This document shows positions 39,658 to 44,241 of a stretch of 64,000 bases of DNA, piece by piece (within the stretch, counting starts at the first letter, position 1; every line of letters starts with the position of its first letter). The notes under the pieces were generated by a model that ran no database searches, was not told the DNA's origin, and was given only the letters and a program-made list of their open reading frames with translations. This DNA is from Rhizomicrobium sp. GTDB lineage: Bacteria; Pseudomonadota; Alphaproteobacteria; Micropepsales; Micropepsaceae. The position numbers were made by a program, and so were the translations under genes. The stretch spans positions 2,170,001 to 2,234,000 of the forward strand of contig JBBCGL010000001.1 in NCBI GenBank assembly GCA_037200385.1. The letters are read 5' to 3'.

Positions 39658-39933
39658 ATGATCGCGAGCAAGCAGGGCGACTGGATGACCGCCAAGATCG
39701 GCGAGGAGCTGGTCATGATGAGCGTGAACAAAGGCAATTATCTCGGTCTCAGCGAGGTGGGCGCGCGCATCTGGGAGATGCTCGAGACCCCGATGGATGT
39801 CGCGGCGCTCTGCCAGCGGCTGCAGGCCGAATACGATGTCCCGCCGGAGATCTGCCGTGCCGAGGTCGAAGCCTTCCTGAACAAGCTGGAATCGCATGGC
39901 GCGGTCGTGCTCGCCTCTTCCCCGGCCGCCTAG
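39658..39933 (+). CDS. PqqD-like RiPP recognition protein
   Basis: A 91-residue PqqD-family protein. It has the three-strand, three-helix order of the RiPP precursor recognition element: strands at KIGEELVMMSVNKGNYLGLSEVG and helices ARIWEMLETPM, ALCQRLQAEY and CRAEVEAFLNKLESHG. Such proteins bind the leader peptide of a RiPP precursor and present it to modifying enzymes. GAGGGGG precedes the ATG. The asparagine-synthetase-like cyclase starts 18 bases downstream, as in lasso-peptide loci (B1-C order). Confidence 0.85.
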   Translation: MIASKQGDWMTAKIGEELVMMSVNKGNYLGLSEVGARIWEMLETPMDVAALCQRLQAEYDVPPEICRAEVEAFLNKLESHGAVVLASSPAA

Positions 39934-39951
39934 CGGTCGCGCCGCGCGGGC

Positions 39952-41838
39952 ATGAGCGCGATCTTCGGAGTCCTGCGGTTCGACGGCGCGCCGGTCTCGC
40001 CCCGCGCGCTGGAGCGCATGGCGAACACGCTGGCGCATTGCGCGCCGGACGGACGGGCGTCGCTGAGCGACGGACCCGCCGGGCTCGGCCATGGCCTATT
40101 GCGCATCACCCGGGAGGACCGGTTCGAGACGCAACCCCTGCGCGTGGCCGACATCGCGCTCGTCGCCGACCTGCGGCTCGACAACCGCGAAGACCTCGGC
40201 GCCGCGTTCGGGCTTGGCGCCGCCGCGCTGCGCGAGATGCCCGACAGCGCGCTGCTGTTGCGGGCCTATCGCAAATGGGGCGAGGACTGCGCCGCGCACC
40301 TGCTCGGCGATTTCGTCTTCGCGATCTGGGATGGGCGCGCCCGCAAACTCGTCCTGGGCCGCGACCATATGGGCCAGCGCCAGCTCCATTATCATCGCGG
40401 CAAGGACTTCCTGGCCTTCGCCAGCGAGATCAAGGCGCTGTGGGCGCTGGACGGCGTGCCGCGCAAGCTGGACGAAACGCAGCTCGGAAAATACCTGCTG
40501 TTCGACAGCACGCCGGGCGACGGCGAGACCCATTACGAGGCGATCCGCAATGTCCTGGCAGGCGAGACGCTGTCGGCGGATGTCGCGGGCAACGTCGCGC
40601 GGCGGCGCTATTGGGAGCCGCAAGCCGCGCGGGAGCATGAAGGCCGCGACGAGCGCTATTATGTCGAGAACTACCGCGCGATCTTCGCGGAAGCCGTGGC
40701 GTGCCGCGTACGCCGCCTGCTCGCGCCGCCGGCCTTGTGCCTGAGCGGCGGCTTCGACAGCGCCGCCATCGCGGGGCTGGCCGGCCCGGCGCTCACCACC
40801 GGCGGCAAGCTCGTCGCCGTCTCGTCCGTGCTGCCCGCCGGTTATGACGGACCGCTGCCGAGCGCGCGCCGCTGGGTCGAGCTTTGCCGCCGCGACATGC
40901 CGCATCTCGACATCCGTTATGTCGCACGCGGCGAAGCGACCGTGTTGTCGAACCTGGAGCAGACCTTCCTGGCCGGCGACAGCCTGCCGAACAACATGCA
41001 CTACGTGGTCGACGCGCTGTTCCGCGAGGCGCGGGCAGCCGGCGCAAGGCTGGTGATGGACGGCACCGGCGGCGACGAGGGGCTCAATCCACGCGGCGGC
41101 GGCTTCCTGGCCCATCTGCTCCGGACCGGACAGCTCCGGCGCCTGGCCGCCGAATTGCGTCCTTATGCGCGGGCCGCCGGCGTGCCGCTGGCGACGGTGC
41201 TGCGCGACGCGGTCGCGGCGCCCTTCGTCCCGTCCTGGGTGAGACGCGTCCGGCGACGCGGTTCGGCGACATCCTGGGCGACGATACCGCTGGCCGCGGC
41301 GTTCGTGACGAGACTGCTGAAGGACGGAGGGGTGGCGGAAGCGAATCTGTATGGCGCGGCCGCACCGCGTGCGGCCACGCCCACGGTGCCGCCGGAATAT
41401 CTGCGCCGCACCGCGCTGGCGCCGCGCCGGCTGCATGTGACCGCGGCGGCGGCGCGCGGCCTCGTCCTCACCAAGCCGCTGCTCGACAAGCGCGTCGTCG
41501 AATTCGCCCTCGCCGTGCCACGCGAACTCCATGTCCGGGACGGGCAGCTCCGCTATCTCGCCTGCCGCGCGCTGGCCGATGTCTTGCCGCGGGAATTCCA
41601 GCGGCGCGCGCCGCGCCAGGATTCCTTCGAGCCGGATTTCGCCGGGATGATGCAGGACGGCCGCGCCGGTATCGAAGCCGGCATCGCCGGCATGGCACAA
41701 AACCCGACGCTGCGCGGCTATTTCGACTTCGACAAGATGCACGCTGCGCTGTCGAAGGGCGGTGAGGCACAGAAGCTCGCCCTGCGCAGCTTCTGCGTCG
41801 CCCGCTATGTCGCCTGGTTCAACGGAGAAAACGCTTGA
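39952..41838 (+). CDS. Asparagine-synthetase-like RiPP cyclase (lasso C type)
   Basis: A 628-residue protein of the AsnB family. The N-terminal glutaminase-like domain (to about 210) starts MSAIFGVLRF, without the Cys2 needed for glutamine hydrolysis. The synthetase domain has the pyrophosphate loop SGGFDS (265-270), the GTGGDEGLNPRGG loop and the C-terminal KPLLDKRVVEFAL. Lasso-peptide cyclases are exactly this: AsnB relatives that have lost the glutaminase cysteine and form an isopeptide by adenylating an Asp/Glu side chain. It follows the PqqD gene and is convergent with the peptide gene. Confidence 0.75.
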   Translation: MSAIFGVLRFDGAPVSPRALERMANTLAHCAPDGRASLSDGPAGLGHGLLRITREDRFETQPLRVADIALVADLRLDNREDLGAAFGLGAAALREMPDSALLLRAYRKWGEDCAAHLLGDFVFAIWDGRARKLVLGRDHMGQRQLHYHRGKDFLAFASEIKALWALDGVPRKLDETQLGKYLLFDSTPGDGETHYEAIRNVLAGETLSADVAGNVARRRYWEPQAAREHEGRDERYYVENYRAIFAEAVACRVRRLLAPPALCLSGGFDSAAIAGLAGPALTTGGKLVAVSSVLPAGYDGPLPSARRWVELCRRDMPHLDIRYVARGEATVLSNLEQTFLAGDSLPNNMHYVVDALFREARAAGARLVMDGTGGDEGLNPRGGGFLAHLLRTGQLRRLAAELRPYARAAGVPLATVLRDAVAAPFVPSWVRRVRRRGSATSWATIPLAAAFVTRLLKDGGVAEANLYGAAAPRAATPTVPPEYLRRTALAPRRLHVTAAAARGLVLTKPLLDKRVVEFALAVPRELHVRDGQLRYLACRALADVLPREFQRRAPRQDSFEPDFAGMMQDGRAGIEAGIAGMAQNPTLRGYFDFDKMHAALSKGGEAQKLALRSFCVARYVAWFNGENA

Positions 41839-41851
41839 GCGCCGCCCCGCC

Positions 41852-42016
41852 TCAGGAGAACTGCGTGCCCGTGGGCGTCGAGCTCTCGAGATAATGCGCG
41901 AATTTGCTGGCCGTTCTGGTCGCGACCTTCGCCATGATGATCTCCGGCGTCGACCAGGCCTTGCGCGCAACCGGAGGCGTTCCGGTGGTGTCGTTCTCAA
42001 GGTCTGGGGTGGTCAT
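41852..42016 (-). CDS. Candidate RiPP precursor peptide
   Basis: A 54-residue peptide gene between the cyclase (stop 13 bases away, convergent) and the radical SAM gene. The leader has W21-x2-P24-x-I26, resembling the YxxPxL motif that binds PqqD-type recognition proteins, and a Thr (Thr35) of the type found two residues before lasso cores. The proposed core is SKFAHYLESSTPTGTQFS: Ser37 to Glu44 would give an eight-residue ring, Ala36 to Glu44 a nine-residue ring. A GAGGA ribosome site precedes the ATG. Function is inferred from size, motif and context. Confidence 0.6.
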   Translation of the reverse strand: MTTPDLENDTTGTPPVARKAWSTPEIIMAKVATRTASKFAHYLESSTPTGTQFS

Positions 42017-42034
42017 CTCGCAACAATCCTCTTC

Positions 42035-42054
42035 ATCGCACGCGATCGCACGCG
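42035..42054. repeat. Tandem 10-base repeat before the precursor gene
   Basis: Two perfect adjacent copies of ATCGCACGCG (42035-42044, 42045-42054) lie 18-38 bases upstream of the precursor ATG, next to its ribosome site. They may be a regulator site or a slippage product. Confidence 0.5.
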
Positions 42055-42134
42055 TGATTTGCGTATGAAAAGATACAAAGAAATTTTCGCGGTGGGAACC
42101 TCGAAACGACGACAAGGCGCTGACAACTTGCCGC

Positions 42135-43694
42135 TCAATCGACATTGTCCGACACATCGTCTCCCATCGGGACGTTTTGCGCGACGCCGGCCAGCGCGAA
42201 CCAGAATGGATAATACGCCTGCTTGTCGAACAGCGCGGCCTGCAACTCCTCCTTGCGCGTGAGCCTACCCAGAGCGTGCTGACAAAGATGGCAAGTGCCC
42301 GAATATCCGGCAGCGCTCTTCGGCACGCGCACATGATCGAAGATCGCGCGCATCGGATTGGCGGCGAGGAATTGCAGGATCGGATCGTTCTGCATGCGCT
42401 TGACCAGCGTGCCGAGCGTATCGCGATCCAGGCGGCCGACGACGACACCCCGGTTCTCGTTGTTCATGCCGCAGCAGGGCCGCGCGCTGCCGTCCGGATC
42501 GAACACGATCTGGTCGATCGCCCGGCACGGGACGTCGATCGGCGACAGCGCGATTCCGTCCAGCGCCGCACCGCGTCCCAGAGGGGCGACCTTGCGAAAC
42601 ATCAGGGCGACGCCATCCTGCAGGGCGGCGGCCGCCACCTGCTGCCGGACGCGACCTTCCGCCTCCGGCGCGTCCGGCGCCAGTTCGCAGTCGACGCGCA
42701 GCGGCCGTCCGAACATCGCGCGATAGGCCGCCGCCAGGGTCAGGACACGATCGAAGGCGACGAATTCCTGATGGTAGACACCGGTGCTCACCTTGATGAA
42801 ATCGGACGCGCCGCGCATGAAGCCTGCCGCAACCAGGCGCTGCAGCATCGCGTCGGTCCGCGCGCGCGTCGCCGCCCAATAGGCGTTGGTGAAGATGCTG
42901 ATGCCGCGCAGTCCCGCAGCGCGGCCGGCCGCGATGAGGGCAATGAGATGATCGGGATAGAGGAACGGCTCGCCGCCCGTCAGGTTGAGATGGCCGATGC
43001 CCGCCGCCGGCATCTGGGCGACGATGTCCAGCATGGGCTCCAGCGCAATGCGCTGCGCCTTCAATTCCGGACCGGAACCGTTGTAGCAATGGCGGCAGCG
43101 GATGTTGCAGTGGTAGGTGAAGCGGAAATTCACCCGCCCGACCGCGAAGGCGAAATTCGACAGGCGCCGCAGGAGACCCTGGGCCGCCGCCTGCGGCTCG
43201 CCGAGCTCCAGCCATTGCGCCAGCCACAGCCAGTCATGCGCGGACACGATGGCCGCGGCCTGCGCGCGCGTCGCCGCGAACGCGGCGATCTTTTCGTCGT
43301 GGCGCGCGCCGGGCGCGGGCGGATGGGCGCGCAGATGGCCGCGATAGAGATCCTGCAAGCGGCGGTCGACCTTGCCGAGAAAAATGTTGCGCAATGCCGC
43401 GACCCCGCGCGCGCTGGGGACGGACGGGCCGCCCGGTATGGCGGCGTAGAGCTCGGACAGGTTGCGGAAACGTCCCGCCGGTGCGCCGGCGAGGCATTGC
43501 ATCACCGGCACCAGCTCCGCGCCGAGGGCGGTCGAGTGTCCGACATGGCGCGGCAGCGCGACGATGTCGTCGCGGTCGAAGCGAAACGCGCCGAAGCCGG
43601 CACCGCCGTCGCAGCAGTCGATGGCGAGCGGCATAGGCAGCGCGGAAGCGGCGCCCGCGCCATCGTCCTCCATGCAAGCGTCGGGCTCGAACAT
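42135..43694 (-). CDS. Radical SAM peptide-modifying enzyme
   Basis: A 519-residue radical SAM protein. After a 180-residue N-terminal extension the SAM cluster motif is Cys196-x3-Cys200-x2-Cys203 (TYHCNIRCRHCYNG), followed by LNLTGGEPFLYPDH. The C-terminal third has Cys390, Cys407-Cys408 and Cys468-x2-Cys471, a partial SPASM/twitch-like auxiliary cluster set. Such enzymes make thioether, C-C or epimerised residues in RiPPs. GGGAAGG fixes the start at 43694, ten bases after the upstream gene. It is followed by the precursor peptide gene. Confidence 0.8.
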   Translation of the reverse strand: MFEPDACMEDDGAGAASALPMPLAIDCCDGGAGFGAFRFDRDDIVALPRHVGHSTALGAELVPVMQCLAGAPAGRFRNLSELYAAIPGGPSVPSARGVAALRNIFLGKVDRRLQDLYRGHLRAHPPAPGARHDEKIAAFAATRAQAAAIVSAHDWLWLAQWLELGEPQAAAQGLLRRLSNFAFAVGRVNFRFTYHCNIRCRHCYNGSGPELKAQRIALEPMLDIVAQMPAAGIGHLNLTGGEPFLYPDHLIALIAAGRAAGLRGISIFTNAYWAATRARTDAMLQRLVAAGFMRGASDFIKVSTGVYHQEFVAFDRVLTLAAAYRAMFGRPLRVDCELAPDAPEAEGRVRQQVAAAALQDGVALMFRKVAPLGRGAALDGIALSPIDVPCRAIDQIVFDPDGSARPCCGMNNENRGVVVGRLDRDTLGTLVKRMQNDPILQFLAANPMRAIFDHVRVPKSAAGYSGTCHLCQHALGRLTRKEELQAALFDKQAYYPFWFALAGVAQNVPMGDDVSDNVD

Positions 43695-43704
43695 TCCGCC
43701 TTCC

Positions 43705-44241
43705 CTATGACGACGCGGATGCCTCCGCAGCCGCGTCTTGCGTGACCACCGTCCATTCCTCATAGACGAACGCCGCCGTCAAGGCCGCCCATGTGCGAAG
43801 CGGCAATGCGCGGTCCGAAAGCACGCGGCGGCCCGCTTTCAACTTTTGCGTCATGCGGCGCAGGAGGGAGCGGCGCGGCGCCGCGGCCCATTGCGCCTGC
43901 TCCGGCGTCCAGAGCTGGCGGTTCTCCCGCCATCGCGCGAGCTTGGCCTGCAGGATCACCTCGTCGAGCTGGCTTTCCGACAACGACCACCACTCCGCCG
44001 CCGACCGGGGCGTCGGCGCGATCGCGAGACAGAGCGCGACCTTGCGGTCTTTCGCGTCGAGCGAGTCGAACTCATGGACAACAGCCCGAATGGACGCGGC
44101 ATAGGCTTCCTCGGAGAAACGATCCTGATCGTCGGCCGGTACCGGGAGAGGCCCTGCCTGCTCGGCGATCCCGGGATTGGCGGCGAGGCGGTCGACCGCT
44201 TTGCGGTAGACCATCGCCTTCTTTATCGCCACTTCGATCAT
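43705..44241 (-). CDS. Unrecognised 178-residue protein of the RiPP locus
   Basis: A soluble, largely helical protein beginning MIEVAIKKAMVYRKAVDRL. Notable segments are FSEEAYAASIRAVVHEFDSLDAKDRKV and EWWSLSESQLDEVILQAKLARW. There is no signal peptide, cysteine motif or membrane helix, and I do not recognise a family. It lies ten bases before the radical SAM gene on the same strand, so it is translationally linked to it and probably works in the same pathway, for example as an accessory or substrate-handling factor. The start at 44241 is a best guess. Confidence 0.65.
   Translation of the reverse strand: MIEVAIKKAMVYRKAVDRLAANPGIAEQAGPLPVPADDQDRFSEEAYAASIRAVVHEFDSLDAKDRKVALCLAIAPTPRSAAEWWSLSESQLDEVILQAKLARWRENRQLWTPEQAQWAAAPRRSLLRRMTQKLKAGRRVLSDRALPLRTWAALTAAFVYEEWTVVTQDAAAEASASS

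Follow-up and report, generated by a model that had tools for sequence, protein, structure and literature searches.

A compact set of five genes in a Rhizomicrobium genome (5.0 Mb, single contig) very probably constitutes a lasso-peptide locus of the known, split-B kind, since its short peptide is recognized by a precursor-family profile and its cyclase, with Ser at position 2, scores best with a lasso model and falls into a lasso-type clade. Sequence comparison establishes the precursor family, the gene order, and the lack of a local B2 leader peptidase gene, and it points to a lasso-type cyclase and a B1 protein, both of which score below the curated lasso cut-offs. Taken as a whole, our preferred reading is that the locus makes a lasso peptide whose linear precursor is tailored by a radical SAM enzyme, and we give this reading a probability of about one-half. 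Throughout, the window denotes the whole stretch of 64,000 nucleotides that was analyzed (G000:C1:2170001-2234000), and positions are counted from its first letter.

Results

All five ORFs (Table 1) are present between 39658 and 44241, where the preliminary description had placed them, and their third-position GC amounts to 0.82 to 0.87, with lower values (0.67 and 0.72) for two long ORFs on the opposite strand. The PqqD-like and AsnB-like genes form a plus-strand pair, and the genes for the 178-aa protein, the radical SAM enzyme, and the peptide form a minus-strand trio. These two arms, previously taken to be divergent, converge on the peptide gene, with 13 bases between the stop of the cyclase gene and the opposing stop of the peptide gene. 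On the minus strand, 10 bases separate the 178-aa gene from the radical SAM gene, both of which read toward the peptide gene. The radical SAM gene lies upstream of the peptide gene across a 118-base gap, in which no terminator-like site was found and which may hold a promoter of the peptide gene's own. From its first ATG, the radical SAM ORF spans 42135-43763 (542 aa); the start likely lies at 43694, 10 bases past the upstream stop and behind a GGGAAGG stretch.

Table 1. Features of the putative lasso-peptide locus (window positions)
Feature	Position	Strand	Basis
PqqD-like B1 protein (leader-binding RRE), 91 aa	39658..39933	+	PF05402, lasso_PqqD_Bac, identity to sibling proteins
AsnB-like lasso-type macrolactam cyclase, 628 aa, Ser2 replacing Cys2	39952..41838	+	NCBIfam scores, clade
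Precursor peptide, 54 aa	41852..42016	-	Profile from 23 sibling precursors
Predicted core SKFAHYLESSTPTGTQFS of the precursor peptide	41855-41908	-	Predicted limits; predicted leader ends ...ATRTA
Radical SAM enzyme, 519 aa, extra C-terminal cysteines	42135..43694	-	PF04055, cysteine pattern
178-aa protein, without recognized relatives, immediately 5' of the radical SAM gene	43705..44241	-	

The first gene product is PqqD-like, as described earlier: it matches Pfam PqqD (PF05402) above the cut-off (E 2.4e-21), and its top NCBIfam model is lasso_PqqD_Bac (71.8 bits; cut-off, 80). It is 44 to 65% identical to nine PqqD proteins of sibling loci. The AsnB-like protein matches Pfam Asn_synthase (E 1.4e-24) and contains a GATase domain as well, which would suit an ordinary asparagine synthetase beside a chance small ORF. 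But among NCBIfam models it scores highest with NF033535, the lasso cyclase (339 bits; cut-off, 525), against 177 bits (cut-off, 267) for the asparagine synthase model; it begins MSAIFG, with Ser2 at the position of the glutaminase Cys, whose loss had already been noted; and a conserved precursor is encoded next to it. These features speak against an asparagine synthetase, a reading that we rejected as very improbable. Ser2 is invariant in the window protein and 10 aligned siblings, so that the Cys2 characteristic of asparagine synthetases is absent. That the cyclase and the B1 protein score below the curated lasso cut-offs counts against our preferred reading. For the cyclase, such a score appears common to the sibling group, since three sibling cyclases, two of which adjoin B2 genes (L046 and L057), reach 291 to 318 bits with the same model.

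A tree of 38 AsnB-like rows puts the window protein inside a clade of 30 (support, 100/100), the eight rows outside it being further AsnB-like proteins other than true asparagine synthetases. This clade includes cyclases of Rhizomicrobium, Sphingomonas, Novosphingobium, and Erythrobacter, and the position of the window cyclase within it is not firmly settled. A search of 100 genomes, 60 from the genus (the window genome included) and 40 from the class, gave AsnB-like matches at E 1e-30 or better in 19. Near-full-length relatives with 43 to 51% identity were found in the window genome itself (three more), in G022 and G029 (two each), and in G002, G024, G039, and G070. A contig scan for the cyclase, which gave at least 80 loci, extended the set to Sphingomonas, Novosphingobium, Erythrobacter, and others. 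A grouping of the AsnB protein with true asparagine synthetases, combined with an unconserved peptide, was not seen in the model scores, the lost Cys2, or the precursor profile.

The 54-aa peptide has no Pfam or NCBIfam match. With a profile built from the peptides of 23 relatives, the window peptide excluded, it ranks first of 563 window ORFs (E 9.3e-7; runner-up, 1.4), the match falling inside a longer ORF at 41852-42448. Left out of this profile were the candidates of L024 (four), L027 (two), L033 (two), L034, L035, L053, and L108 and a third one of L056. The profile match places the peptide, proposed earlier as a 54-residue leader-type peptide, in a precursor family. Of the initial reading, the RiPP locus with a lasso-type cyclase, the genuine leader-type precursor, and the B1-type PqqD protein are thus supported.

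In known lasso leaders, Thr/Ser-x stands directly before the core. The window peptide has a W-x-x-P leader, Thr at -2, Glu at core position 8, and a terminal Ser, and by analogy the cut site would be Thr-Ala/Ser, leaving a predicted core of 18 residues, SKFAHYLESSTPTGTQFS, with Lys at core position 2. Under the same rule, sibling precursors mostly carry Asp/Glu at core positions 7-9 (AHVTQYTD in L031, AGVALATD in L030, and SGSSPSTPE in L049); in a few siblings (L032, L055, and L056-type) the fit is only loose. A terminal Ser is common to 23 of 23 profile peptides and the window peptide. Downstream of the cyclase gene, on the opposite strand and within 120 bases or less, a short ORF with W/Y-x-x-P is found in 20 of the 31 clade loci, the window's included and one contig counted twice, and elsewhere among them the precursor lies upstream of the cyclase or there are several precursors. 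The motif search found no precursor in L040, L044, L047, or L054, and the sole motif precursor of L053 is far upstream of the cyclase. Separately, L024:10215-12030 holds four different precursor-like peptides after one cyclase, two of them without a terminal Ser.

The sibling loci (L023-L033 and L040-L062) come from Sphingomonadaceae, Erythrobacter, and Rhizomicrobium. Together they sketch a lasso group, widespread among Alphaproteobacteria, whose loci combine opposite-strand precursors with kinases and sulfotransferases. Marker counts over the 31 loci were obtained by tblastn with hand-picked representatives, with one contig entered twice (L027 and L041) and flanks of varying length. On this basis, an HPr-kinase-like gene is present in 26 of the 31 loci, as is a sulfotransferase gene (26/31). 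The window locus has neither, and both are likewise missing from L025, L031, and two short entries. Two or three phage-tail-collar (PF07484-like) genes and a GNAT gene, often with DUF6916, stand beside the cyclase in 18 of 31 sibling loci (for instance, L057:12300-15660 and L030:10554-13086); the window locus is without tail-collar, GNAT, and DUF6916 genes. A literature search for lasso loci with tail-collar or microcystin-dependent protein genes found no paper.

The window genome (G000) contains nine AsnB-like matches (E 1e-30 or better) and ten PqqD matches but only two B2 genes in 5 Mb; unusually many lasso-type loci would thus share a small number of peptidases. At L031:6849-8525, in the same genome, a tryptophan-halogenase-family gene (PF04820, 428 bits) immediately precedes the cyclase of a locus that has no PqqD, B2, kinase, or sulfotransferase gene. 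L138 (G000:C1:4664000-4682000) has three PqqD matches within 5 kb (4670456, 4672131, and 4675222) and no AsnB-like kin among its called genes, and it is possibly another RiPP-type locus. L028 (G029) and L033 (window genome) are near-identical double lasso-type loci with cyclase branch lengths of ~0.02, in which two cyclase sets with B2, kinase, and sulfotransferase genes lie close together.

No match to B2 (Transglut_core3) was found in the 64-kb window. Two such genes lie elsewhere in the genome, ~2 Mb off, where they neighbor the AsnB-like genes of L033 and L035. Of the 31 loci, 17 have a B2 gene in the vicinity and 12, the window's among them, have none; two entries, both from one short contig, allow no call. 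One sibling B2 gene scores above the lasso B2 cut-off. Two genomes whose loci are without B2 (G022 and G039, with L023, L029, and L026) each carry a single B2 gene, located on another contig, and a search of G024 found none. The preliminary description had placed radical SAM chemistry in the role of B2. Such a pathway, in which this chemistry or a Lys side chain replaces the B2-made N terminus to give a new peptide class, would fit a window without B2 and a core with Lys at position 2 and Glu at position 8. But the 11 sibling loci without a nearby B2 gene carry no radical SAM gene either, the window genome, G022, and G039 have B2 genes that could act in trans, and several sibling cores contain no Lys. 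The first two observations led us to reject replacement of B2 by the radical SAM enzyme, the third bears on a Lys-Glu side-chain lactam, which was also weighed, and a pathway that dispenses with the peptidase seems to us highly improbable. The plain reading is that B2 would act in trans for the window locus, leaving no need for the radical SAM enzyme to take its place.

The radical SAM protein matches PF04055 (E 5.7e-11; 43.3 bits; cut-off, 29.5), and its cysteines agree with the extra motifs reported initially: the CxxxCxxC motif (C219xxxC223xxC226) is followed by C413-x12-G-x3-C430-C431 and C491xxC494. Some 180 N-terminal residues have no match. SPASM (PF13186) reaches 14.3 bits, under the cut-off of 21.5, with only part of the SPASM cysteines present, and the YydG model TIGR04078 reaches 33.7 bits (cut-off, 300) over residues 216 to 434. 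We rejected a defense role (viperin), for which NF038283 gives 46.7 bits (cut-off, 180) and the PADLOC matches also cover the core only. The 178-aa protein is as unrecognized as first described: searches against Pfam, NCBIfam, PADLOC, and PDB gave nothing significant, and plasmids gave no match. We likewise rejected a hidden RRE, either in the radical SAM N-terminal region or in the 178-aa protein (hhalign probabilities, 0.14 and 0.46 percent, respectively), though only weakly, since single sequences were compared. Alignment-free structure models were too poor for interpretation, their mean pLDDT being 50.5 (178-aa protein) and 43.0 (radical SAM protein).

We searched genus, class, phylum, and family genome samples that overlap. 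The radical SAM protein found nothing but itself in 100 relatives searched at E 1e-20, 385 genomes of the class at E 1e-15, and 69 of the genus at E 1e-10. Distant kin at E 1e-10 appeared in 11 others among 398 phylum genomes (25 to 36% identity) and in 4 of 397 genomes of the family of G070 (25 to 34%), and a plasmid search returned three records at 24 to 26%. An exact 8-residue pattern scan of genome contigs, which reaches close kin only, confirmed none of 13 radical SAM pattern matches. The 178-aa protein found itself only among the 385 class genomes and, among the 100 relatives, one further match (E 0.003) that runs through two stops. Genes were called by a simple ORF plus GC3 rule, and around nine distant radical SAM matches, some on short contigs, no PqqD or AsnB kin was seen among the called genes; the surroundings in L136 include one weak kinase-like match (35% over 57 aa). 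A radical SAM profile of ten sequences, the window's included, recovers held-out radical SAM genes in L141-L147 (four genomes). Among 115 AsnB-type loci scanned with it, some short and some overlapping, it detected a radical SAM gene in one, the window's own.

Some distant radical SAM relatives retain CC and CxxC. Over the length of the enzyme, the closest relative (28% over 325 aa) lies in L148 directly behind an ORF of 87 aa, and its top model is the YydG epimerase (63 of 300 bits, core only); another, in L149, follows a 102-aa ORF. These small ORFs and the YydG-model score of L148 suggest that the radical SAM protein is a peptide-modifying enzyme. In their own right, L148:8190-9608 and L149:8199-9524, from genomes of the G070 family, may represent precursor/maturase pairs, in which the small ORFs have no NCBIfam name.

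Discussion

In the pathway that we favor, the B1 protein would bind the W-x-x-P leader, and the radical SAM enzyme would alter the linear precursor before it is cut, most likely by epimerization or a crosslink. The enzyme, assisted by the 178-aa protein, would thereby hold the tailoring place that sibling loci give to a kinase and a sulfotransferase. Cutting after Thr-Ala would fall to a B2 leader peptidase from another part of the genome, and the AsnB-like cyclase would adenylate Glu8 and join it to the new N terminus, so that a ring of eight residues and a tail of ten result. Here we infer the core limits, the ring, the threading, and the trans action of B2.

As a lasso tailoring candidate, the radical SAM enzyme has about even odds. 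It is encoded a short way upstream of the peptide, on the same strand and with no terminator-like site between, the kinase and sulfotransferase genes are missing, and small ORFs precede the genes of its closest full-length relative and of another relative. Against such a role, 114 of the 115 AsnB-type loci have no radical SAM gene, L025 and L031 lack kinase and sulfotransferase genes, yet they have no radical SAM gene, and the peptide gene may have a promoter of its own. Co-occurrence of the five genes in other genomes had been named as a test of the initial reading, but it was not seen in the genomes sampled, so that a conserved five-gene set is not supported. Apart from distant radical SAM kin, no sampled genome other than the window's had the radical SAM gene or the 178-aa gene; co-conservation with the peptide was thus not seen, and their link to it is positional.

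Since both proteins matched only themselves and a single locus of 115 has a radical SAM gene, a chance neighborhood is almost as likely as a tailoring role. The locus would then be a plain lasso locus where the 178-aa/radical SAM pair, serving some other job, has landed, with B2, and perhaps a kinase and a sulfotransferase, supplied in trans. Sibling precursors do function beside varied neighbors, L032 and L033 of the window genome hold kinase and sulfotransferase genes, and the retained C-terminal Ser fits such enzymes acting in trans. This sits less well with a pair that reads into the peptide gene across 118 bases and with radical SAM relatives behind small ORFs. The tailoring reading can be taken further, although only tentatively, to a first lasso peptide with radical SAM chemistry, in which an enzyme somewhat similar to YydG, fed by the cyclase's B1 protein and assisted by the 178-aa accessory, would add D-residues or a carbon crosslink before knotting. 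Action of the radical SAM enzyme on this precursor, if true, would mean that a single B1 protein serves two kinds of chemistry, and it would make radical reactions available for engineering lasso peptides.

A-B1-B2-C-K lasso clusters are already known in proteobacteria, as is phosphorylation by SyanK in the SyanA/SyanK system of Sphingobium yanoikuyae (PMC5067487, PMC9266682), and the C-terminal Ser is the residue phosphorylated by lasso kinases such as SyanK (PMC9266682). Most known lasso tailoring enzymes act on the linear precursor, two of them aided by B1 (PMC9266682, PMC8498205). The tailoring reactions named in the review passages include phosphorylation, methylation, acetylation, hydroxylation, MslH epimerization, citrullination, and succinimidation; radical SAM epimerases come up in them only in connection with other classes of peptide (PMC9266682). 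A sulfotransferase gene occurs in some Firmicute lasso clusters (PMC8498205), and the neighboring gene clusters tabulated for Pontixanthobacter relatives contain B2, nucleotidyltransferase, sulfotransferases, PqqD, and asparagine synthase (PMC10040529). The lasso RRE model of RRE-Finder retrieves about 300 proteins beside radical SAM enzymes, counted as false positives for lasso peptides (PMC7470986). Our literature search, which covered mostly journals open without subscription and in part only, found no description of a lasso locus with a radical SAM enzyme.

Among epimerases, MslH acts on the linear lasso precursor of MS-271, aided by B1 (PMC9266682). It belongs to the metallophosphatase superfamily, whereas the window enzyme is a radical SAM protein. 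With YydG-type epimerases of epipeptides, the window enzyme shares the radical SAM core, but it falls far below their model cut-off and has an extra N-terminal part, and its locus has no YydF-like precursor.

The sibling loci have cyclases 39 to 51% identical to that of the window, and they share its precursor family and, mostly, its opposite-strand layout. They differ in that most have a kinase and a sulfotransferase, often with tail-collar, GNAT, and DUF6916 genes, and none has a radical SAM gene. Like the split-B A-B1-B2-C-K clusters (paeninodin and SyanA/SyanK; PMC5067487, PMC9266682), the window locus combines a discrete PqqD-like B1 protein, an AsnB-like cyclase, a leader with an aromatic-x-x-P motif, and a terminal Ser. 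Unlike clusters of the paeninodin/SyanA type, it has no kinase and no B2 gene, it carries radical SAM and 178-aa genes, and its precursor gene follows that of the cyclase but is read from the other strand. The lasso portion thus represents a familiar type of locus; tailoring by a radical SAM enzyme, if true, would be new among the lasso loci in the literature covered.
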